NCBI GenBank assembly: GCA_029560585.1
Contig: JAKQKQ010000028.1
Coordinates: 1 to 54,400 of the forward strand
Reading direction: 5' to 3'
DNA: 54,400 bases
Source of the DNA: Verrucomicrobiota bacterium
GTDB lineage: Bacteria; Verrucomicrobiota; Verrucomicrobiia; JADLBR01
The position numbers and the translations under genes were made by a program. Of the stretch, positions 2,197 through 54,400 are shown piece after piece. Position 1 is the first letter of the stretch, and every line of letters starts with the position of its first letter. A model generated the notes under the pieces. The model made no database searches, had not been told where the DNA came from, and saw only the letters and a program-made list of their open reading frames with translations.

Positions 2197-2583
2197 TCAG
2201 AGCAGCCCCTCGCCTTCGAGTTCCGAGAGCCGCGCCTCGTCGTGATCCGCCACGACCTCCTTGAGCCCGGGCAGATCGACCAGTAGTTCGAGGCAGAGGC
2301 TCGCCTCGCCGCCCCCCGGCATGCCCGTGGTCTCCATCACCCGCGAATCCTGGGTCACGTATACCCACGCAAACTCGTCCCCGTTCAACACCCGAAATTG
2401 CAAATTCTTCTCCCATCGCACCTCGCCTGCCCCCCCCACGCGCGTGGTCGCCACATCGCGCTCCAGGACCTGCTCCAGCCCCTCATAACGCTCCAGCCAC
2501 AGGTCGACAATATACCTGAGCAGCACCTCGCCCAGCGGCTCCTCAAAAACCGCAACGAAACCTATGGAAAACGGATTGACCAT
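2197..2583 (-). CDS. Hypothetical protein (128 aa)
   Basis: This is an unrecognised acidic protein with no signal peptide or membrane span. It starts MVNPFSIGF and ends [10 protein letters not shown]. The composition (alternating charged and hydrophobic residues, [20 protein letters not shown]) suggests a small alpha/beta domain. It is divergent from gmd, which begins 117 bases away on the other strand, and isolated from the neighbouring genes. It is the longest plausible frame here and carries no repeat-like sequence. Coding status is likely but not proven. Confidence 0.55.
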
Positions 2584-2700
2584 CTTCGGAAAAACTTAGT
2601 CGATCATCGGCCGGAGGGCAACCACGCGCCCTTCACCCTCGAAGTCTCCCCGCCATTCTTGGATTGCCGTGATCGGTCGCCCGACTACCCTTCAACTCTC

Positions 2701-3711
2701 ATGCCCAAGGCACTTGTCACTGGGATCACGGGGCAGGACGGTTCCTACCTCACCGAACTCCTGCTCGGCAAGGGTTATGAGGTGCACGGGATCATCCGCC
2801 GCGCCAGCACCTTCAACACCCATCGCCTCGACCATCTCTATCAGGACCCCCACGCCGAAAAGCCAAAACTCTTCCTGCACTATGGCGACATGACCGACCC
2901 CGTCATGCTCGTCAGGCTGCTATACAGCCTCCAACCGGATGAGGTCTACAACCTCGCGGCCCAAAGCCATGTCCGCGTTAGCTTCGATGTGCCGGAATAC
3001 ACGTGCGACGTCACCGCGGTAGGGGCCCTGCGTCTCTTGGAGGCGATCCGCGAATCCGGCCTGAAATGCCGGTTCTATCAGGCCTCCAGCAGCGAGATGT
3101 TCGGGAAGGTCGCCGAAACGCCGCAGCGCGAGACGACGCCCTTCCATCCCCGGAGCCCCTACGCCTGCGCCAAGGTCTTCGCCCACTACGCGATGATGAA
3201 TTACCGCGAGGGCTATGGCATGTTCAACTGCTCCGGGATCCTCTTCAACCACGAGTCGCCCCGGCGCGGTGAGACGTTCGTCACCCGAAAGATCACCCGC
3301 GCCGTCGCCCGCATCAAGGCCGGCCTCGACAAGGCCCTTTTCCTCGGAAATCTCGACGCCAAGCGCGACTGGGGTTACGCGCCCGAGTACGTCCAGGCCA
3401 TGTGGCTCATGCTCCAGCAGGACAGGCCCGACGATTATGTCGTCGCCACCGGCGAGACACATTCGGTCCGCGAATTCCTCTCGGAGGCCTTCGGCTGCGT
3501 CGGGCTCGACTGGCGCCAGTTCGTCAAACACGACCCGCGCTACGAGCGCCCCGCCGAGGTTGATCTCCTGCTCGGCGATGCCGCCAAGGCCAGGCGCGTG
3601 CTCGGATGGCAACCGCAAACCACCTTCAAGGAACTGGTGCGCATCATGGTCGAGGCCGACATGGCCACCGTCCAGCGGGAGATGTACGGCACGCACGGGG
3701 GGCCCACTTGA
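2701..3711 (+). CDS. gmd: GDP-mannose 4,6-dehydratase
   Basis: It converts GDP-D-mannose to GDP-4-keto-6-deoxy-D-mannose, the first step towards GDP-L-fucose and related deoxysugars, in the cytoplasm. The 336-residue protein is an extended short-chain dehydrogenase: NADP-binding [10 protein letters not shown] at residue 7, the family-typical [27 protein letters not shown], the SSSEMFG active-site strand, the catalytic pair in YACAK, and [18 protein letters not shown]. The frame is open back to 2398, but homology starts at ATG 2701 (MPKALVTGI), so that start is chosen. The stop overlaps the start of fcl, which completes the pathway. Confidence 0.95.
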
Positions 3712-4646
3712 GCTTCTGGACGGACCGGCGGGTCCTCGTCACCGGCGGCAACGGCTTTCTCGGCAGGCACCTGCTCGCCGAACTCCGCCGCGCCGGATGC
3801 GCGCGCATCGATGCCCCGCGCAGCGCCGAATTCGATCTCACCCGGCCGGACGACGCGGCCCGCATGATCGGTGCCGCGAAACCCGAGATCATCTTCCACC
3901 TCGCGGCCGTGTGCGGCGGCATCGGCGCCAACCGTGCCGAGCCAGGGAGGTTCTTCTACGCGAACGCCATGATGGGCCTCCACCTCCTCGAGGCCGCATG
4001 TCGCGCGGCCGTGCCAAAGACCGTGCTGGTTGGCAGCATCTGCGCGTACCCCAAGTTCGCGCCCGTACCCTTCCGCGAGGAGTCCCTCTGGGACGGTTAT
4101 CCCGAAGAGACCAACGCACCCTACGGCCTCGCAAAAAAAATGCTGCTGGTCCAGGCGCAGGCCTACCGGGCCCAGTACGGGACCAATGCCATCTACCTGC
4201 TGCCCGTTAACCTCTACGGCCCCCATGATAATTTCGACCCGGAGACATCCCACGTCATCCCCGCCATGGTCCTCAAGTTCGAGACGGCCCGCCGGGAGAA
4301 TCGCCCGTCGGTGCGCCTCTGGGGCACGGGATCCGCATCCCGGGAATTCCTCTACGCGCCCGACTGCGCCGAGGCCCTCAGGCTCGCCGCCGAACGCTAC
4401 GATGGCCCCGCCCCCGTGAACATCGGCGCCGGCTTTGAAATCACAATCCGCGATCTTGCGGAGAAAGTGCGCCGCCTGGTCGGTTACACGGGGGAAATCC
4501 AGTGGGACGCCTCAAAGCCCGACGGCCAGCCCAGGCGCATGCTCGACACTTCGCGCGCGAGGGAGTTGTTCGGGTTTGAGGCGCGGACGCCCTTCGAGGA
4601 AGGGCTGGCCAGGACGATCGCCTGGTACCGCGAGGCCTATTCGTAG
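3708..4646 (+). CDS. fcl: GDP-L-fucose synthase (GDP-4-keto-6-deoxy-D-mannose 3,5-epimerase/4-reductase)
   Basis: This NADPH-dependent epimerase/reductase uses the Gmd product to make GDP-L-fucose. I propose the TTG at 3708, which overlaps the gmd TGA by three bases (TTGA) and follows a G-rich stretch that could bind the ribosome. The upstream ATG at 3606 would add 34 non-homologous residues lying inside gmd. Motifs: [14 protein letters not shown] near residue 8, [14 protein letters not shown], the SICAYPK strand and catalytic YGLAKKM, then NLYGPHDNF and [12 protein letters not shown]. The 312-residue length is normal for the family. Translational coupling to gmd is likely. Confidence 0.93.
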
Positions 4647-7310: not shown

Positions 7311-8741
7311 TCACTCCGCCCTCCGGTACGCGACGAGGCGATAGGGCGCCGCCGCGCCAAACGGCATCCGGTCCGCGCCATCGCCCAATGAACCGAGCGA
7401 GACCCACTTTCCGCCAAGGATCGATGCCAGGCTTCCGGCGTCCACCTCCGGTCGCACGCACGCGGCCGTGATCGACCGGCGCACATCATCGGGGATCTCT
7501 GCAACCATGTCCGACGCCCGAGGATAGACGCCCCCGGCGATCGGCCTCAGCGCGAAATATGCGGAAGGATCACACAGCACGCGATCCCCCCCATGGAACT
7601 TCCCCGCCACAAACATCTCCACGCGCCGATAGTCGCGCTCGCCCCACTCCAGCACACACACGCACAGGCGCGCGGGCGCACCCGCGACTATCGCCCCCGC
7701 CGTGCAAATGATGGCGGCGCCCCGCGCGAGCGAGGGGCCATCGACCGACATCAGTTGCGCCAGGGAGAGAACCGCCGGAAAGAACGCGAGCCAACTGTAG
7801 TACGAGGGCCATTTGCCCAAAAGCGCCTGCAGCACGCCCACGGTCAAAATCCCCATCAGGGCAAGAACCGCGATGCGGCGACCGCCGGGACGGCCCCTGA
7901 AGAAGAGGGCCGCGACACCCAACCCAAGGCACACCAGCAGGAGGCTCGGATCGCGGAAACCATCCAGTCTGAACTGGAAATGTGGCGAGAAGATGCCGTT
8001 CTGGTAGAGGCGCGAACAGAGCACGAAAGACTCCCAGCTTCCCGTCGCGCGATAGAATCCCACCATCGATACCGCCCCCACCCCGAATCCCGTCCACGCC
8101 ATGGCGACCGGCCCGATCCAGCCCCGGCCCAACAGAAAGACCAGAAACACGCCCACCACCGCAAGATACGGCCCAAGGAACAGCCCGCACCACGGCGCGG
8201 CCGCCCCCAGAAAGAAGAAGGCCACGAGCCGCTCCCGCCCACGGTCCGCGGCGAGCACCGCGTAGTTCGCCGCCCACCAGAGCATCGCCAGCGCATCCCC
8301 GCGCCCACTCCGATAACTGAAAACCACACCGGCCGCGCACAACAGTGCCCCCAGCAACAGCAACCCCACACCCGATGAACGCGCGTGACCCCGCCGTCGT
8401 GCCGTCCACCAGATCCACCCCGCCGCGCAGGCCGCCATCAGGATCGGCAGCACCCTGACCTGCCAGAGTCCCACCCCCATGATCTTCAGCCATCCACCAA
8501 GCGCAAAGCCATAGGCGGGAACCAGCCCCGGCCAGAAGACGTGCTCCCCCACCAGCGTCCAAGCGGTCGTCCGAAACCCATCCCCCGCCGCAAAGTGGAT
8601 CGCCGGATCCGCAAAATACACCTCGTCGTGCCACGCGGTCGGCGAGCGCGTCACCGTCGCCAGGTTCGCCACCAGCACGACCAGCCACAGCAGTGCCGCA
8701 AACAGCATCTCGCGCCTGGTGATCACTTCATTCCGCGCCAT
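7311..8741 (-). CDS. GT39-like (ArnT/PMT type) membrane glycosyltransferase
   Basis: This 476-residue polytopic inner-membrane protein is predicted to use a polyprenyl-phosphate sugar as donor on the periplasmic face. After a first membrane span (residues about 11-30) comes a periplasmic loop with HDEVYFADPAIHFAAGDGF, the Asp-Glu motif expected of GT-C enzymes. About 10 further hydrophobic helices follow, for example LWWLVVLVAN-like and FLVFLLGRGWIG segments. A hydrophilic C-terminal domain of about 130 residues follows the last helix (VLEWGERDYRR onward). Its UbiA neighbour could supply a lipid-linked pentose or similar donor, which is inference. The acceptor is unknown. Confidence 0.78.
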   Translation of the reverse strand: MARNEVITRREMLFAALLWLVVLVANLATVTRSPTAWHDEVYFADPAIHFAAGDGFRTTAWTLVGEHVFWPGLVPAYGFALGGWLKIMGVGLWQVRVLPILMAACAAGWIWWTARRRGHARSSGVGLLLLGALLCAAGVVFSYRSGRGDALAMLWWAANYAVLAADRGRERLVAFFFLGAAAPWCGLFLGPYLAVVGVFLVFLLGRGWIGPVAMAWTGFGVGAVSMVGFYRATGSWESFVLCSRLYQNGIFSPHFQFRLDGFRDPSLLLVCLGLGVAALFFRGRPGGRRIAVLALMGILTVGVLQALLGKWPSYYSWLAFFPAVLSLAQLMSVDGPSLARGAAIICTAGAIVAGAPARLCVCVLEWGERDYRRVEMFVAGKFHGGDRVLCDPSAYFALRPIAGGVYPRASDMVAEIPDDVRRSITAACVRPEVDAGSLASILGGKWVSLGSLGDGADRMPFGAAAPYRLVAYRRAE

Positions 8742-8961
8742 TCGTCAAATCCAACGCCGTCGCCGCAGAAAGTCGCGCCCGTGGTGCAGCCGGGCAGGGC
8801 CGACCCACCCCGTGCATCCCCTATTCTCGGGCCAGACATCTTGCCCGCCGCGACGGCCACCACCGGGGATGAAAATGCGGTTGTGGGGCGTCTGTGTCAG
8901 ACGCCGTCCACCCACCTCTGCCGTCTCACAGGGACGGCCTACAAGATCCGCGATTCTCGAG
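8742..8961. repeat. Intergenic repeats (families C block and D)
   Basis: Between two genes, 8859-8877 holds CCACCACCGGGGATGAAAATG-type sequence (shared with 1945-1964). 8880-8946 holds GGGGCGTCTGTGTCAGACGCC, an inverted pair, then GCCGTCTCACAGGGACGGC. These match the D-family palindromes at 6448-6500 and 40685-40742. No gene is seen here. Confidence 0.6.
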
Positions 8962-10689
8962 TCAGCCTTTCCGCGTCACGAAATGCCGCCCGAGCACAAG
9001 CGCGTCCATCTGCGTCCGGAGGAAACACCTGATGGCCTCATTCGGCGTCCGCACGATGGGCTCGTTCTCGTTCAGCGACGTGTTCAGCACGATCGGCACC
9101 CCGGTCCGATCCTCAAACCGTTTGATCAGCGCCCAGTATCTCGGGTTGGTGCGCCGCGATACCGTCTGCAGCCGCCCGGAACCATCGACGTGCGTCACGG
9201 CGGGAATCACGGCCCTCTTCTCCGGCCTCACCTGGAATACCTTCTCCATGAACGGCGATGGCGCATCGACCTCGAAGTACTCGGCGACTCGCTCCTCCAG
9301 AATGCTCGGGGCAAACGGCCGAAATTTTTCTCGAAACTTGATCTTCAGATTGATGATGTCCCGCATGTCCTCGCGCCGCGGATCGGCGAGCAACGAGCGG
9401 CTGCCGAGCGCGCGGGCGCCGAATTCCATCCGACCGCAGAACCACCCGATCACGCGACCCTCGCAAAGGGCGGCAACGACGCGATCCATCAGCGCGTCAT
9501 CCCCCATGGACTCGTGCTGCACTCCTTCCGCCCGGATGGCGTCGAGGCATTCGGCGTCCGTGACCTCGCAACCCCAATAGGCGTGATCCAAAACAAAGCC
9601 CCGCGGCTTGCCCAGGACCCGGTGCCACACGTGGAACGCCGCGCCAAACGAGGTCCCGTTGTCCGCCGCGCCGCCCGGCACGTACACGCTCTTGAAAGGC
9701 GTCCGCAGCGTCACCTTGCCATTTGCCACGGAATTCATGGCCACCCCGCCGACGATGCAGAGATTGTCGCATCGCGCGCGCTCGTGCAGTCGCCCCAGGA
9801 GATGAAAGATGATCTCTTCGGTGACGGCCTGGAGCGAGGCCGCGATGTTCTGGTGCTTCTCGGTGACGTCGGCGCGCGGTTCTCGTGGCGGTCCCAGTTC
9901 CCGCTCCAGCCGGCCGCTGTGGAACGGCTGCACCACCGGCGCGCCGTCGTTCCACGTCATCGTGATCCCGCGCTTATGGTGCGTGAAGTAATCCATGTTC
10001 AACTCGAAACCATCGCCCTTGGGAAAAACGATTCTCCGAAAGAGTTCGAGATACTCGGGCTTGCCGTAGGGGGCGAGGCCCATGACCTTATACTCGTCGC
10101 CGTAGGCCGGAAACCCCAGGTACAGCGTGATCGCATTGTACAGGAAGCCCAGCGAGTGCGGATAATAGATGCGCCTAAAAACCCCACAGCCCGTGCCCCG
10201 TCCTCGGGCGGTCAGCGTGCTCACGAAATCCCCCATGCCGTCCACCGAGAGAATCGCGGCCTCCTCGAACGGCGAGACGTGGAAACCCGAAGCGACGTGT
10301 GCCAGGTGATGCTCGACCCGATGGACCGGCGCCCGGATGTCGACCTCGCAGCAGTCACAGGCCTCCGCCAATTGCGAGCGCAGGCTCGTCACGCGCCGCT
10401 GCCGCTTGAGCCGGTTCCAGACCGCCGACAGGGATGGCCGCTGCGCCAGCACGAAGCCGATCCGGCGATGCAGATTCGCGCGCGGATCAAACGAGATCGC
10501 CACGTGGTCCACATCCCGGATCGTCAGCCCGGCAAAGCCCAGGCAGTAGCGTATCGATTCCGCGGGGAAACCGGCCCAGTGCTTGATCCGGTTGAAGCGC
10601 TCCTCCTCGACCGCGACAGCCAGGCGGCCATCCACCAGCAGCGCGGCCGATGCATCCCCGTGATAGGCGTTGATCCCCAATATGTTCAT
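8962..10689 (-). CDS. Carbamoyltransferase (NodU/CmcH/TobZ family)
   Basis: It is predicted to carbamoylate a hydroxyl of a sugar, using carbamoyl phosphate and ATP. The 575-residue length and layout match the two-domain family: an N-terminal Kae1-like ATPase domain starting MNILGINAYHGDASAAL with VEEERFNRIKHW, the HHLAHVASGFHVSPF metal-binding motif, SVDGMGD, LYLGFPAYGDEYKVMGLAPYG and CIVGGVAMNSVANG. The C-terminal YrdC-like half has REKFRPFAPSIL and TSLNENEPIVRTPNEAI. O-carbamoylated sugars occur in Nod factors and some O-antigens. It stands alone between two repeat-bearing gaps. Confidence 0.93.
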   Translation of the reverse strand: MNILGINAYHGDASAALLVDGRLAVAVEEERFNRIKHWAGFPAESIRYCLGFAGLTIRDVDHVAISFDPRANLHRRIGFVLAQRPSLSAVWNRLKRQRRVTSLRSQLAEACDCCEVDIRAPVHRVEHHLAHVASGFHVSPFEEAAILSVDGMGDFVSTLTARGRGTGCGVFRRIYYPHSLGFLYNAITLYLGFPAYGDEYKVMGLAPYGKPEYLELFRRIVFPKGDGFELNMDYFTHHKRGITMTWNDGAPVVQPFHSGRLERELGPPREPRADVTEKHQNIAASLQAVTEEIIFHLLGRLHERARCDNLCIVGGVAMNSVANGKVTLRTPFKSVYVPGGAADNGTSFGAAFHVWHRVLGKPRGFVLDHAYWGCEVTDAECLDAIRAEGVQHESMGDDALMDRVVAALCEGRVIGWFCGRMEFGARALGSRSLLADPRREDMRDIINLKIKFREKFRPFAPSILEERVAEYFEVDAPSPFMEKVFQVRPEKRAVIPAVTHVDGSGRLQTVSRRTNPRYWALIKRFEDRTGVPIVLNTSLNENEPIVRTPNEAIRCFLRTQMDALVLGRHFVTRKG

Positions 10690-25260: not shown

Positions 25261-26493
25261 TCATCCATGATTCCAGACTCTAACGACGGCATCGACGGTC
25301 CTTCCCAGATCAAAACCCTTCACGAGTTCGCGGCATCGCGCCGCCAGTGCTTCATGGTGCCCCATCGTATGGGCAATGCTCTTTGCCAGGGCATCTGTAT
25401 CCCCGCAGGGGTAACTCAGCGCGGGATCCACGGGCACCACCATATCCTCCGCACATCCGCAAGCATCGCTGACCACGCAGGGCAACCCGCAGGCCATGGC
25501 CTCATTCACCACGAGCCCCCACGTCTCCCCATGATCGCTGGGCAGCACGAGGCAGTCCGCCGCGGCGTAGGCGCGCGGGATCTCGGTCTGGTTCAAGAAG
25601 CCGGTGAAAGAGGCGCGAGGGCGCGCCTTAAATTCGGAGCTCGGAATTCGGAAATGGAAGTTTTGATTCTCTAAGTCGAAAACCACCTCGCACTGAGAGC
25701 GCAAGACATCGCTGAGTTCGCCACTACCCACGAACAATAGGTGTGCCGTTTTCGGAATTCGAATTCCGAACTTCGAATTACCAAGTCGCCGCACCGCGGC
25801 GACGAGGTCCATGGGCCTTTTCTTCGCGATGAACTTCCCACAGAACATCACGCAGAAGGCGTCACCGGGGATTCTCCAAAAATTTCGAATTTCGAATTTC
25901 GAATTTCGAATTTCCTCCGCCTGCGCCGCGAAGCGAGCGTTGTCCACGCAATACGGCGCCATGTGGAGGCGATCCCCCTGCACGCCCATGCCCTCGTACA
26001 TGCGCCGGTTGGCCGACCCGATGCAGAGGAAGTGATCCACGCGGCGGAAGAGTTGTCCCAAAACCGCGCGGCGCAGCCGGCGCTTCCACGCGGGTCGCGG
26101 CGCCATGTCGTTGCTCTCCCCGCGCAGCCACACCGATGCCCCGGCCGCCGTCACCTGCCGCACCGCCTGCCAGTAAGCCGCCACCTGCCAGCCCTGCAGC
26201 CAGACCGCGCGCACGCCCTTTTCGCGAATCATTGGCCCCAGCGATTCCGCCAACCGCACGCCCCAGAATCGATTGACGTCCCAGTTCTCATTCACCTTCA
26301 GAAACCGATGCGGGTAGCCCTTTAGCGGATCCACATCCCAGGCAAAATCCCTTCCGAACTCCTTGTCGGGTGTCACGTCCGCCCCATGCCGCGTCAGGAA
26401 CCACACCTCGAAAGGCACTCGGCCATCGGCGGCCAGCACCCTCCAGAGGGGAACCTGGTATTGGATGGGGTGGGTGGTCAGGATGGCTAACAC
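25261..26493 (-). CDS. Glycosyltransferase family 4 with three repeat-derived in-frame insertions
   Basis: This 410-residue GT-B enzyme is longer than related sugar transferases. The N-terminal domain has ILTTHPIQYQVPLWRVLA and VWLRGESNDMAPRPAWKRR. The donor domain has VMFCGKFIAKKRPMDLVAAV, HLLFVGSGELSDVL and HGETWGLVVNEAMACGLPCV, with the E-x7-E donor pair intact. Between these conserved blocks are three pieces encoded by TTCGAA-rich repeat DNA: residues about 194-206 (EEIRNSKFEIRNF), 238-248 (GNSKFGIRIP) and 274-292 (ENQNFHFRIPSSEFKA). They keep the frame open and probably lie in loops. Codon and base use there is AT-rich, unlike the rest of the gene. Activity may or may not survive. Confidence 0.86.
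   Translation of the reverse strand: MLAILTTHPIQYQVPLWRVLAADGRVPFEVWFLTRHGADVTPDKEFGRDFAWDVDPLKGYPHRFLKVNENWDVNRFWGVRLAESLGPMIREKGVRAVWLQGWQVAAYWQAVRQVTAAGASVWLRGESNDMAPRPAWKRRLRRAVLGQLFRRVDHFLCIGSANRRMYEGMGVQGDRLHMAPYCVDNARFAAQAEEIRNSKFEIRNFWRIPGDAFCVMFCGKFIAKKRPMDLVAAVRRLGNSKFGIRIPKTAHLLFVGSGELSDVLRSQCEVVFDLENQNFHFRIPSSEFKARPRASFTGFLNQTEIPRAYAAADCLVLPSDHGETWGLVVNEAMACGLPCVVSDACGCAEDMVVPVDPALSYPCGDTDALAKSIAHTMGHHEALAARCRELVKGFDLGRTVDAVVRVWNHG
25630..25917 (-). repeat. Family E (TTCGAAATTCG) repeats inside the GT4 coding sequence
   Basis: Three AT-rich blocks lie inside the gene at 25630-25680, 25744-25790 and 25878-25917. The last reads as four direct copies of TTTCGAA in a row. Each keeps the GT4 frame. 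The same sequence lies outside genes at 26494-26560 and 26935-26975. In the GC-rich surroundings they are conspicuous. Confidence 0.8.
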
Positions 26494-26560
26494 AGGTCGA
26501 ATTTCGGATTTCGAATTTCGGATTCTGGGCTTCGAATTTCGGATTTCGGAAGGGGAAGAA
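26494..26560. repeat. Family E repeat, left flank of the four-helix-bundle gene
   Basis: GAATTTCGGATTTCGAATTT, CGGATTCTGGGCTTCGAATT and TCGGATTTCGG are direct copies of an 8- to 10-base unit. The block spans the whole gap between the GT4 start (26493) and the small gene's stop (26563). Confidence 0.75.
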
Positions 26561-26562
26561 AC

Positions 26563-26913
26563 TCAGCGTCGGCGCAGCTTTCGGCCGATGGCGCAGAAGA
26601 TCGCGAGCAGCTCCGAGGCTTCCGCTTTCATTTCCTCAATCATGCCTTCGGATGCGACCATCTTCCTGGAGCAGATTTCCATCCAATATACCGTCTCGGA
26701 CGCTTCCTTCTCGCAGAGGGCAATCTTGTGTTTGAAGTCGTCGCGGGATTCCGCCCGATTCGCCTCCCTGTAGTTCGCCCCGACCGATGTGCTACTCTTG
26801 AGAAGCTGCTTCCCAATCACATCCCGCAGAATTCCGTTCCGGATCCCTGAAACCAATCCAACGACGTCGCAAGCAAACCGCAGTGTCCTTTCTTCGAGTT
26901 CGTTCTTTCCCAT
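26563..26913 (-). CDS. Four-helix bundle protein (23S rRNA intervening-sequence / S23 family)
   Basis: This 116-residue helical protein of the family is also encoded in intervening sequences of 23S rRNA of some bacteria, where it assembles as a pentamer of helical bundles. Seen here: ELEERTLRFACDVVGLV, then LRDVIGKQLLKSSTSVGANY, REANRAESRDDFKHKIALCE, KEASETVYWMEI and EGMIEEMKAEASELLAIF, the usual order of conserved blocks. Its cellular role is unknown. It is flanked on both sides by TTCGAA repeats and interrupts the polysaccharide genes, so it may have arrived as a small cassette together with them. Confidence 0.9.
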   Translation of the reverse strand: MGKNELEERTLRFACDVVGLVSGIRNGILRDVIGKQLLKSSTSVGANYREANRAESRDDFKHKIALCEKEASETVYWMEICSRKMVASEGMIEEMKAEASELLAIFCAIGRKLRRR

Positions 26914-26925
26914 TTCCTATCCCTT

Positions 26926-27144
26926 TTATGTTCTATTCCCATTTTCCGCTTTCCGAATTCCGAATTCGGCGATCGCCTCATTTAAGATGACTTTCCAGCG
27001 GTCCCCATACGCCCCCCACGTGAACCGCTCCGCGGTCGTGCGCGCGGCCGCACCCATCTCCGCCAACCTGCCCCGGCTCTCGATGCACCAGCGCATCCTC
27101 GCCTCACGACTATCGACGTCTTCAGCAGAAACCAGAGACCACAC
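26926..27144 (-). pseudogene. 3' fragment of a GT4 glycosyltransferase gene
   Basis: The 72-codon frame reads VSAEDVDSREARMRWCIE, then SRGRLAEMGAAARTTAERFT and WGAYGDRWKVILNEAI. It is nearly the same as the C-terminus of the full GT4 at 27911-29158 (MRWCIENRGSLAEMGAAARTTAERFTWGAYGERW region), also at DNA level (27000-27110 versus 27985-28095). It lacks the N-terminal domain and donor site, so it cannot be an active transferase. Its tail runs into a TTCGAA repeat, which supplies the stop. It lies directly downstream of the methyltransferase whose other neighbour is the intact GT4. It probably marks a duplication followed by deletion. Confidence 0.75.
26935..26975. repeat. Family E repeat, right flank of the four-helix-bundle gene
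   Basis: ATTCCCATTTTCCGCTTTCC and GAATTCCGAATTCGGCGATC, overlapping the 3' end of the GT4 fragment, where it encodes its last residues (FGIRKAENGNRT). Confidence 0.65.
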
Positions 27145-27910: not shown

Positions 27911-29158
27911 CTAAGCGGAATCGTATTTTTGTGGCGCGCTGGTGAGGTCGATTGCTCCCTCGAGAATCTCCGCCCACCTCTCTCCATACGCCCCCCATGT
28001 GAACCGCTCCGCGGTCGTACGCGCGGCCGCACCCATCTCTGCCAAACTGCCACGGTTCTCGATGCACCAGCGCATCTTCGCCTCCAGCGCGTCCACGTCG
28101 CCGGCCGGAACCAGAAACCCGTCGCGTCCTTCGCTGATGAAATCAGGCCCGCCCGTGGCCTCGGTCGTAATCGCCGGTAACCCGCTTGCCATCGCCTCCA
28201 GGATCACCAGACCAAAACCTTCGAAGAGACTCGGGAACACGAACACGTCGCAGTCGGCAAACAGCCGCGGGAGTTCCGAGTTTGGGACAGATCCCCGGAC
28301 CGAAAGCCCGGGCAGGCCGGGGATCAGCTTTCGGACGTCGGGCGCCGCCGGTCCCACGAGCCGCAGCTCGGCATCCGAGGATTTGAGCCGCCGCCATGCC
28401 TCGAGCAGCAAGGGCAGGCCCTTGCGCGCCTGAAGCGCACCGACGAAAATGAATCGCAGTGGCCGATTCGCCGCGTCGCGATCGCCCATGCGGAAGCGCT
28501 CGAGGTCCACGCCATAGGGATTCACACGGATCTTGGCGCCACCCACCCCATGCTCGATCAGGGTCCTCCTCGTGAACGTGCTCGCGACAACGATCCGTTT
28601 GGCCTGCGCATGCTCCTCTCGCTCTCCCGCCAGCACATCCGCTCGGCGCACCTGATAGGTGTCCGACCAATCGGGATAGCTCTCGGCCAATGTTTGGTGC
28701 AACCGCTCCCTCGCCAATGGGTGCGCGATGCTCTGGTCCAGTATGAAAGGAATGCCGAGCGCGCCGCACCGTTTCGCAAGGATCCAAGAGGCGGTGTCGA
28801 ATCCGACGACGGCATCCGCCCCGGCCAGGACGGCATCCGGTATCCCCCGCTGAAATGCGGCATTGCGCCGCCAATAAAGTTCCTCGCCCCCGCCCAACCA
28901 AGACTTCCACAGGAGGGCCCACAGCTCAACCGATGCCAAACACCGAAGCTTCGCGGATGGCACACCCGCCAGCGCACGGCTCGACAGCTTCCTCCGAATC
29001 CCGGCTGAGGGAATAGACGTCCGCAAGAATCTCCCAAGGCGAGAATCCGCCGGATAGGCGAATCCGGTCCAAAACATCTCCAAGAGGCCCAGGCGTGACA
29101 GTTCTGCCGCAAGCCTGAACGCGTGCTGCGTCCCGGGATGGGTGACGATGACCCTCAT
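27911..29158 (-). CDS. Glycosyltransferase family 4
   Basis: This 415-residue GT-B enzyme begins MRVIVTHPGTQHAFRLAAEL. GFDTASWILAKRCGALGIPF and DQSIAHPLARERLHQTL form the N-terminal domain. RFIFVGALQARKGLPLLLEA, VRGSVPNSELPRLFADCDVF and LFEGFGLVILEAMASGLPAI (E-x7-E) form the donor domain. Its last 60 codons have a near copy at 26926-27144. It is the upstream partner of the methyltransferase at 27166, so a glycosyl/methyl pair acting in sequence is plausible. The donor is not known. Confidence 0.88.
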   Translation of the reverse strand: MRVIVTHPGTQHAFRLAAELSRLGLLEMFWTGFAYPADSRLGRFLRTSIPSAGIRRKLSSRALAGVPSAKLRCLASVELWALLWKSWLGGGEELYWRRNAAFQRGIPDAVLAGADAVVGFDTASWILAKRCGALGIPFILDQSIAHPLARERLHQTLAESYPDWSDTYQVRRADVLAGEREEHAQAKRIVVASTFTRRTLIEHGVGGAKIRVNPYGVDLERFRMGDRDAANRPLRFIFVGALQARKGLPLLLEAWRRLKSSDAELRLVGPAAPDVRKLIPGLPGLSVRGSVPNSELPRLFADCDVFVFPSLFEGFGLVILEAMASGLPAITTEATGGPDFISEGRDGFLVPAGDVDALEAKMRWCIENRGSLAEMGAAARTTAERFTWGAYGERWAEILEGAIDLTSAPQKYDSA

Positions 29159-40536: not shown

Positions 40537-41003
40537 CAATCAACACGAATCCCTTTCGGATCACCATCCGTGTGCATTCGTGTCTATCCGTGGTCCGCTT
40601 TCTCCCGCAGAGACGCAGGGACGCAGTGCCGTCACGTCCGCCGGGAGGGCCCGCGGCCTGAGCGTGTCTCAAAACCTCTGAACCGTGCCGCCTGGCACAG
40701 GCGGCCTACAAATTTAGTAGGGCATCTCTGTGAGATGCCGTGCATTGTCGCGCGCCGCACACCATTGGAAGTCCCCTCTATTATCAGATGGGCATTGATT
40801 GTTGGGTGTTCCGTGTTGGGAGTTTGAGTTTTGAGACAGCCTCGCCTCGCGGGCCGGGTCGGCCCAGGAACCGCGCATCCGGTGGGACTCATGCTTCACG
40901 CGCCGACTCCAACCACGAATGGACACCAATCAACACGAATCCCCATCCAGCGCCTTGAACAGGAGGCAACAGAGATAACGGAGCCATTCGTGTGCATTCG
41001 TGT
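40537..41003. repeat. Gene-free gap with families A, D, F and G repeats
   Basis: 40537-40600 has CAACACGAAT with GTGCATTCGTGTCTATCCGT, a family A half; 40600-40625 has TCTCCCGCAGAGACGCAGGG. 40685-40742 has CCGCCTGGCACAGGCGG and GGGCATCTCTGTGAGATGCC (family D). 40795-40845 has GTTGGGTGTTCCGTGTTGGG (family G). 40910-41003 has AACCACGAATGGACACCAAT mirrored by TTCGTGTGCATTCGTGTCTA. I see no gene; the frames here are repeat translations. Confidence 0.7.
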
Positions 41004-42230
41004 CTATTCGTGGTTCGCTTTCTCCCGCGGAGACGCAGGGGCGCAGAGAGTTCCACCTGGTATCCCCACCTTCTCCCAACCCGCGCGCCATGTGGCCCGA
41101 GCCGCCTCGACCGACAATCGCGTCGCCACCAGGCGCCGCGCATTCGCCAGCACGCGTCGCCGCAGTCCGGGGTCCCGCACGGCCTCCACCCCGCGTCGCA
41201 TCGCCTCGGTCGCGGGCGACGTGACAACCACCGCGGCATCCTCCGGCGCGAGGTAATCCACCATCGCGCTGTCGGACGGCCCGATCGCCAGCGTCATCGT
41301 CCCGCTGGCGAGGCACTCGGACATCTTGGTCGCGATATTGAAATGCGACATGTTTGCCAGCGCCTCTTTGAAACTGATGGGCAGCAGGACGGCGTCATAC
41401 TCGCGCATCTTGGCCACCACGTCCTCGGGGGCCGCGGCGCCGCGCGCGCTCACGCCCGCCACTTTGATCTCCTCTGGGAGATCCTGTCGTGACCACACAT
41501 CGAGGGTTGCGCGACGCGGGCTCACGGCCGCATTCACGAAGGCCTCCAGAGCATCGACCTGCCACGGCCCCACGTGCCCGAAATACCCGCACCGGATCGG
41601 GCCACCCCCCGACGAGATATCCCACCGCGGTTCCCCAACGGGGTCCGCTGGACCGAACAGGACCGTCGCTTCCACGCCAAACCTCTCCCGGTAGAATCTC
41701 CCGAGCGCCGGGCTGATGACGAACACGTGTGCCGCGCCCTGCAGGTGCGCCCGCATCAAGTCCTCCATCTCTGGATCATAGCGCCACGAATCACCCTCTC
41801 GCCGCAGGCAGTGGTCGTCCATCATCCACGTCACATAGGGAAACGGGTTTCCGCGGCGGATATCCCCCAAGATCCGAGGAACGAAATCCCCCTGGGGGCA
41901 CGCCAAGCATCGGACCCGATCCCTCCCCCGCAGCAGCGCCCGCATCCGCACTGCCGCGCGACGACAAAACGCCCGCCTCAGACCCGGACGCCTCGCCAAA
42001 CGATCCGCCATCGTGCACCCCAGCAATCGACGGCACCAGACCGTGTCCGGCCAGAAATCGATCTGCACTGACCTCGGAGCGAAACGCCGGGCCGGGGGCG
42101 CCTGCCGCGCGAATCCACCCGGATGCACGAACAGATCGAATGCATCCAGATCGGAACCCAACACCCGCTGCAAGGTCAGACCGCCGCCGTGGCCGTCCGA
42201 GACCGCCATTTCTGAAAAGAGAAGGTTCAC
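41004..42230 (-). CDS. Glycosyltransferase family 4-like protein, C-terminus provided by repeats
   Basis: This is a 408-residue GT-B-like protein: NLLFSEMAVSDGHGGGLTLQ at the N-terminus, then VRCLACPQGDFVPRIL, YVTWMMDDHCLRREGDSWRY and AHVFVISPALGRFYRERFGV. The donor domain has IRCGYFGHVGPWQVDALEAF and FNIATKMSECLASGTMTLAI. The last 15 residues GTLCAPASPREKANHE are the inverse translation of a family F block (CTGCGTCTCCGCGGGAGAAA) joined to a family A block, ending AAC CAC GAA TAG. The natural C-terminus was probably near WEKVGIPG. The enzyme itself looks complete. Confidence 0.8.
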   Translation of the reverse strand: MNLLFSEMAVSDGHGGGLTLQRVLGSDLDAFDLFVHPGGFARQAPPARRFAPRSVQIDFWPDTVWCRRLLGCTMADRLARRPGLRRAFCRRAAVRMRALLRGRDRVRCLACPQGDFVPRILGDIRRGNPFPYVTWMMDDHCLRREGDSWRYDPEMEDLMRAHLQGAAHVFVISPALGRFYRERFGVEATVLFGPADPVGEPRWDISSGGGPIRCGYFGHVGPWQVDALEAFVNAAVSPRRATLDVWSRQDLPEEIKVAGVSARGAAAPEDVVAKMREYDAVLLPISFKEALANMSHFNIATKMSECLASGTMTLAIGPSDSAMVDYLAPEDAAVVVTSPATEAMRRGVEAVRDPGLRRRVLANARRLVATRLSVEAARATWRAGWEKVGIPGGTLCAPASPREKANHE

Positions 42231-54030: not shown

Positions 54031-54400
54031 GCGCCCGCCCTGGTGGGACGGGGTTCCACCACGGATGGACGCCGATGGACACCGATGCCTTCGCCGAGCA
54101 CCCCTCCCCATCCGAGTTCATCCGTGTTCATCCGTGTTCATCCGTGGTTGCTCACAGCGCCCGCCCTGGTGGGACGGGGTTCCACCACAGATGGACGCCG
54201 ATGGACACCGATGCCTTCGCGGAGCACCCGTTCCCCATCCGAGTTCATCCGTGTTCATCCGTGGTTGCTCACAGCGCCCGCCCTGGTGGGACGGGGTTCC
54301 ACCACGGATGGACGCCGATGGACACCGATGCCTTCGCCGAGCACCCGTTCCCCATCCGAGTTCATCCGTGTTCATCCGTGGTTCCTCAATGCGCCCGCCC
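54031..54400. repeat. Tandem array with 117-bp unit (three units and the start of a fourth)
   Basis: Units begin at 54031, 54157, 54274 and 54391, each with GCGCCCGCCCTGGTGGGACG, then GTTCCACCACGGATGGACGC, CGATGGACACCGATGCCTTC and ATCCGTGTTCATCCGTGGTT. Spacings are 126, 117 and 117 bases; the first carries an extra TCCGTGTTCA. Inner inverted arms (CCACGGATG / CATCCGTGG) let each unit fold as a hairpin. The unit length equals 39 codons, so the minus-strand frame repeats NTDELGWGTGA. The array continues past the window edge. It is not a CRISPR: the unit is too long and there are no unique spacers. Confidence 0.85.

Follow-up and report, generated by a model that had tools for sequence, protein, structure and literature searches.

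A heptad repeat within a Verrucomicrobiota glycosyltransferase gene probably belongs to an adjoining S23p/IVP element with inverted 7-bp arrays

The STRR heptamers of heterocystous cyanobacteria form 7-bp tandem arrays in which a single unit is used genome-wide, and REP/RAYT and MITE-type non-autonomous elements are small, carry inverted repeats and have a partner gene. Heptamers are also found in the 23S rRNA of Coxiella burnetii, where an intervening sequence (IVS) encodes S23p, has a 28-bp terminal inverted repeat and includes GACAGAT heptamers in tandem, the number of which differs from strain to strain; this IVS is removed by RNase III (PMC4990558). TAACTGA heptamers, found in Beggiatoaceae, cyanobacteria and Bacteroidota, usually precede start codons and are at times found within ORFs (PMC4679880). 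That repeats can be read in frame as peptides is established for the Rickettsia palindromic elements (RPEs; Ogata et al. 2000, as cited in PMC2229807). Here, we compare these systems with a locus in a 54,400-nucleotide stretch of Verrucomicrobiota DNA, which we call the window, where a 7-bp repeat is present in a gene for a GT4-type glycosyltransferase. We consider it likely that this repeat belongs to the adjoining S23p/IVP element, that is, a gene for a four-helix bundle with typically inverted 7-bp arrays of a locus-particular unit, and that it has spilled from there into the neighbouring DNA.

The presumed core of the element is an S23/IVP gene (23S rRNA-intervening-sequence protein family) on the minus strand at 26563..26913, directly upstream of the GT4 gene. 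Its 116-aa four-helix-bundle product matches Pfam family PF05635 (E-value of 1.1e-14) and PDB entry 2rld (E-value of 2.8e-17), as expected of an S23p ORF. A repeat search identified heptad arrays on both sides, also assigned to the minus strand. The downstream arm lies between the IVP stop and the GT start (26497..26550) in the CCGAAAT/CGAAATT orientation, and the upstream arm (26943..26967) is inverted, with the orientation AATTCGG. Copies of the repeat outside genes had already been reported in a preliminary description based on the DNA letters, and these two arrays bear that out. Both are clear and inverted, but their complementarity is weak, with a score of 11 that was reached by 49 of 944 controls. 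Folding the whole IVP element as RNA gave no significant result (z of 0.02), though the arms pair. The window has no Rfam match at the gathering threshold and no rRNA. Since it is found between protein-coding genes and outside 23S rRNA, we classify the window element as S23p by gene and architecture, not as an rRNA IVS. No empty site was found, and in L083, an uncultured Verrucomicrobia MAG, the upstream gene shows no homology to the neighbour in the window. L083 is the nearest relative without an adjoining repeat-bearing gene, and the absence of the IVP unit upstream of its GT gene suggests that the unit was inserted here.

The resemblance to the Coxiella burnetii 23S IVS consists of an S23p/IVP ORF of ~120 aa, an element of ~430 nt, terminal inverted repeats, which are clear for the class but weakly complementary in the window's own copy, and tandem heptamers upstream of the ORF (PMC4990558). 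Unlike that IVS, the window element has protein-coding neighbours and heptad arms on both sides, its unit is locus-specific and its arrays reach into the neighbouring gene. The Coxiella case was the only link between S23p and heptamers found in the literature, in a search that left most subscription papers outside its reach. The general heptad architecture and the spill-over into coding sequence thus far look new, a provisional assessment.

Other repeats also occur in the window. A 146-bp direct repeat, 84% identical between its copies, is found at 26995-27140 and 27974-28119. The first copy lies immediately upstream of the IVP upstream array and appears to be a relic of the 3' end of another GT4 gene, found at 27911-29158. 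A separate intergenic repeat with a period of 10 (CATCCGTGTT / CACCGATGGA) occupies 54060-54400 and other spots, such as 40564-40626 and 40914-41012, and a 117-bp tandem array of it runs off the contig end.

The GT4-type glycosyltransferase gene itself (25261..26493, minus strand, from the ORF and Pfam) has a GTG start, encodes 410 aa and contains three heptad sites. Its product matches PF00534 (3.7e-22) and also PF13692, and the E-x7-E pair, E323/E331, is intact and conserved, in agreement with the earlier statement that the GT4 motifs are unbroken. The motif TTCGAAATTCG, allowing at most one mismatch, has 18 matches in the window where 1.5 are expected, a count that none of 100 shuffles reached, and nearly all of them fall inside 25751-26964. 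Site 1 (25881..25914, minus strand) is a perfect 34-bp array of 4.9 AAATTCG copies with a TRF score of 68 and encodes EIRNSKFEIRNF, residues 194-205. Site 2 (25751..25784, minus strand) is an imperfect heptad array encoding LGNSKFGIRIPK, residues 237-248. Period-7 scores of 27 for site 1 and 11 for site 2 exceed the 99% level of codon shuffles, which is 10. Site 3 (25631..25653, minus strand), recognised by its period-7 score and the codon alignment, is shorter and imperfect or degenerate and encodes FRIPSSEF, residues ~281-290. The repeat is thus in frame in the GT4 gene at three places, as first described, with a smaller third block: of the proposed residues 274-292 only ~281-290 are repeat, and the remainder of the loop is present in relatives without TTCGAA. 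An AlphaFold model of the protein, based on a two-row alignment, had a mean pLDDT of 61 and cannot place sites 2 and 3 because residues 241-305 are below 50.

The AAATTCG unit contains no stop codon in any of the six frames, consistent with the proposal that the repeat can occupy coding sequence while keeping the frame, of which the DegT and Cas6 genes discussed below are stronger cases. When the 7.06-Mb genome was searched for the window's heptad unit, it was found at this locus alone, together with one weak match on another contig. One repeat family occupies intergenic DNA and, in frame, the GT4 gene. In this respect the locus resembles RPEs, short repeats with inverted ends that are found between genes as well as fused in frame in conserved genes, where the enzymes tolerate them (Ogata et al. 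2000, as cited in PMC2229807). RPEs are family-wide sequences of 105-146 bp, whereas the repeat studied here is a locus-private, IVP-linked 7-bp tandem unit. A conserved element sequence of 100-150 bp is absent here, and the 7-bp unit changes between species.

Arrays of this kind flank IVP genes throughout the class, as well as those on plasmids from four further phyla. In a first set, period-7 arrays were present at 17 of 33 IVP loci and at none of 29 GT4 control loci. When 60 IVP loci were sampled independently, each with as much as 16 kb of context, 43 period-7 arrays were found within 300 bp of the IVP gene, at 29 loci, versus 31 in the 716 kb elsewhere, a 27-fold enrichment. Among the other periods in this sample, enrichment was 12-fold for period 8 and 21-fold for period 14, which is a multiple of 7; periods 4-6 and 9-13 had zero arrays near the IVP gene. 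Inverted arms scored above the 99% level of controls with the same geometry at 38 of 59 IVP loci (p of 2.5e-28), while direct repeats between the arms gave no signal in these 59 loci (p of 0.71). Overall, 88 of 122 loci had inverted arms scoring at least 13, and across the 122 loci identity within arms was 0.72 at lag 7 versus 0.23-0.33 at lags 3-6 and 8-13. The plasmid loci come from Cyanobacteria (Nostocales and others), Bacteroidota (Riemerella), Alphaproteobacteria (Azospirillum) and Gemmatimonadota (Gemmatirosa). All 15 that were examined had inverted arms scoring at least 14, with a period of 8 in Gemmatirosa. Some cyanobacterial plasmids carry heptad-armed IVP genes within CRISPR-Cas operons (L242, L247 and L248), placed between cas10 and cmr3 or between cas6 and cas4. 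In others, IVP genes with inverted heptads lie inside a transporter gene pair or between ribonucleotide reductase genes (L246 and L255).

Arrays do not require an adjoining IVP gene, as two genomes, G039 and G031, have many without one. Dispersed elements of ~145 bp are found in these genomes (L085-L091 and L093), with two inverted heptad arrays (GAAATCC...GGATTTC), ~60-100 bp between them and no IVP gene. They are possibly non-autonomous derivatives. Such gene-less inverted heptad pairs in G039, as well as the combination of inverted repeats with a partner gene, recall REP/RAYT and MITE-type elements. Unlike in those systems, there is no transposase, IVP being a four-helix bundle, and it is the period and inversion of the arms that are conserved, not their sequence.

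The unit is private to the locus. When neighbourhood arrays were compared with the units of IVP arms, 22 matched the unit of their own locus and none matched that of another locus, so that further arrays in the neighbourhood, some of them inside coding sequence, have the local IVP unit. On the single contig of genome G027, 31 of 32 AACGAAT matches are located within 11.5 kb of the IVP gene. Not all in-ORF arrays near IVP genes share the unit of the local arms (L162). TAACTGA heptamers likewise form 7-bp tandem arrays that are mostly intergenic and in some cases in ORFs; by contrast, they have one unit genome-wide and are described as direct repeats, and we found no mention of S23p in that paper (PMC4679880). 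Among pairs of IVP proteins with at least 65% identity, 71% agree in their unit (at most one mismatch), compared to about 2-3% below 45% identity, and the Mantel correlation between unit and IVP protein similarity had a rho of -0.22 (permutation sd of 0.045). This pattern fits co-inheritance with fast turnover. We also considered recognition by IVP of its own heptad via co-evolution and rejected it. No recognition is claimed, because the unit follows the IVP protein only among close relatives, as co-inheritance predicts. Stop-free units are not favoured among the arrays (54 of 67 are stop-free on at least one strand versus 57.6 expected); selection for them would be limited to arrays that have landed in genes.

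Heptads reach coding sequences at other loci too. In G027, a DegT aminotransferase gene adjoining the IVP gene (8455-10080, minus strand, of locus L181, G027:C1:2194000-2210200) has two segments built of heptads, 55 and 101 residues long. They are clear insertions: at those two points, PDB relatives have 5 and 0 residues. In the same locus, heptads also form a segment close to the N-terminus of a GT4 gene (2474-4048, minus strand), and AACGAAT and GGACGGC-like heptads, two dialects, are interleaved across 11 kb there. In Pseudanabaena galeata, the Cas6 gene adjoining IVP contains a segment whose heptads have the local IVP unit, and the Cas6 of Anabaena sp. 90 lacks this segment; a Pseudanabaena relative (91.5% identical) has kept a degenerate version of the segment, with no IVP gene annotated there. 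Further in-ORF heptads were found in a polyketide synthase linker and a sodium:solute symporter.

To determine what the three sites add to the glycosyltransferase, we drew GT4 homologues from 57 related genomes and one scan of genome contigs. The orthologue in G001, which is of the same genus, is 74% identical, and that in L083 58-61%; the window, G001 and L083 were combined in a codon alignment. The net length relative to L083 is unchanged at site 1 and greater by 6 and 3 residues at sites 2 and 3, respectively, which makes ~9 added residues rather than the ~40 initially estimated. Site 1 has the same length in L083, L034, L025 and several distant homologues, so its array is a length-neutral replacement of an ancestral helix segment and not an insertion. 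It aligns with the RxxxR helix of relatives and is modelled as a helix in the low-confidence AlphaFold model, which contradicts the placement of all three blocks in loops. Against distant family members, the window protein is longer at sites 2 and 3 alone. In G001, longer, GC-rich segments are present at all three sites, and its two strongest period-7 tracts coincide with sites 2 and 3 (a GGGGCTA-type array and CCCCTAG, respectively; unit CTAGGGG/CCCCTAG). For this unit, matches at three mismatches were at the background level of controls, so we counted only those with at most one or two. A third array of the unit lies directly before the G001 GT start codon, in the position of the window's own array; the G001 contig stops 150 bp upstream. 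L083 has an AACYTTC heptad array at site 3 only. The window and G001, two species of one genus, have different units at the same GT sites and have kept period, orientation and arm pairing. Judging by this alignment, heptad sites 2 and 3 are old, and their unit changes from species to species.

These comparisons bear on the reading originally put forward, in which a generic, intergenic AT-rich repeat entered the glycosyltransferase in three separate insertions and added ~40 residues in loops. The repeat is indeed in frame at three places and also present outside the gene, and the additional residues of sites 2 and 3 are missing from distant homologues. We nevertheless regard this reading as very improbable. 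The net gain over L083 is too small, and the repeat is confined to the locus, where it represents the heptad of the adjoining S23/IVP gene, instead of being generic in the genome. Blocks 2 and 3 exceed L083 in length; both are already extended and heptad-periodic in G001, with another unit, and site 3 is heptad-periodic in L083. Homologues that lack the repeat and have the same residues at these positions were in part found in this same alignment. Another reading would have ordinary microsatellites, with 7-bp tracts arising by independent slippage in tolerant spots and no causal tie to the IVP gene. The plentiful heptamer tracts without IVP genes in some genomes speak for it, as do heptamers in other organisms such as TAACTGA (PMC4679880). 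It does not predict the 27-fold enrichment at IVP genes, the inversion, the single unit per locus or the prevalence of period 7 over all others, and we think it quite unlikely.

A last alternative concerns the RNA. Within the GT4 coding sequence, an inverted-repeat search and RNA folding identified a hairpin (25631..25779, minus strand) with inverted, 90% complementary arms at 25760-25779 and 25631-25650 and 109 nt between them. These arms, at sites 2 and 3, enclose conserved GT4 sequence, and the hairpin folds with -57.7 kcal/mol (z of -4.16). The orthologous hairpin at sites 2 and 3 of G001 has a z of -3.01; the arm sequences of the two species are unrelated, yet complementary within each pair. 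The heptad hairpin in the GT4 mRNA could therefore be a selected regulatory RNA structure, possibly a target of RNase III or IVP, and not spill-over. Its presence in two species despite wholly different arms would favour this, as would the processing of S23p elements in rRNA by RNase III (PMC4990558). However, L083 has the site-3 array alone without a site-2 partner, homogenisation of inverted repeats by template switching is expected to produce the same pattern without selection, and cleavage within the coding region would inactivate the GT4 mRNA. We consider selection on the hairpin unlikely.

Under the preferred reading, spill-over from the S23p/IVP element, heptad tracts would be seeded from the arms of the element into nearby DNA, and may then grow and shrink via slippage in 7-bp steps. 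Arrays within a locus may be homogenised through template switching or conversion between them, a process that would keep the arms complementary while the unit turns over. Within genes, tracts would survive only if they leave the frame unchanged (net 3n), have no stop codon on the sense strand and are located in a tolerant segment. The hairpin arms, in RNA or DNA form, are the probable target of the IVP protein.

A broader interpretation, which we offer tentatively as possible rather than probable, is that stand-alone S23p/IVP genes represent a widespread class of mobile or self-propagating elements, with period-7, inverted, locus-private arms, that actively write their own heptad into the surrounding DNA, including conserved genes in frame. 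If true, the four-helix-bundle protein would belong to a local system for writing repeats. Genes of the S23p/four-helix-bundle kind are common, and the rule of inverted 7-bp arrays with a locus-private unit would provide a handle on their role and a ready way to find them. Heptad arrays are also visible sources of new in-frame segments in conserved enzymes, as in the G027 DegT aminotransferase with its gain of ~150 residues. Within a locus, the arrays change their unit together and still pair, which makes the concerted evolution of short repeats directly testable by strain comparison.
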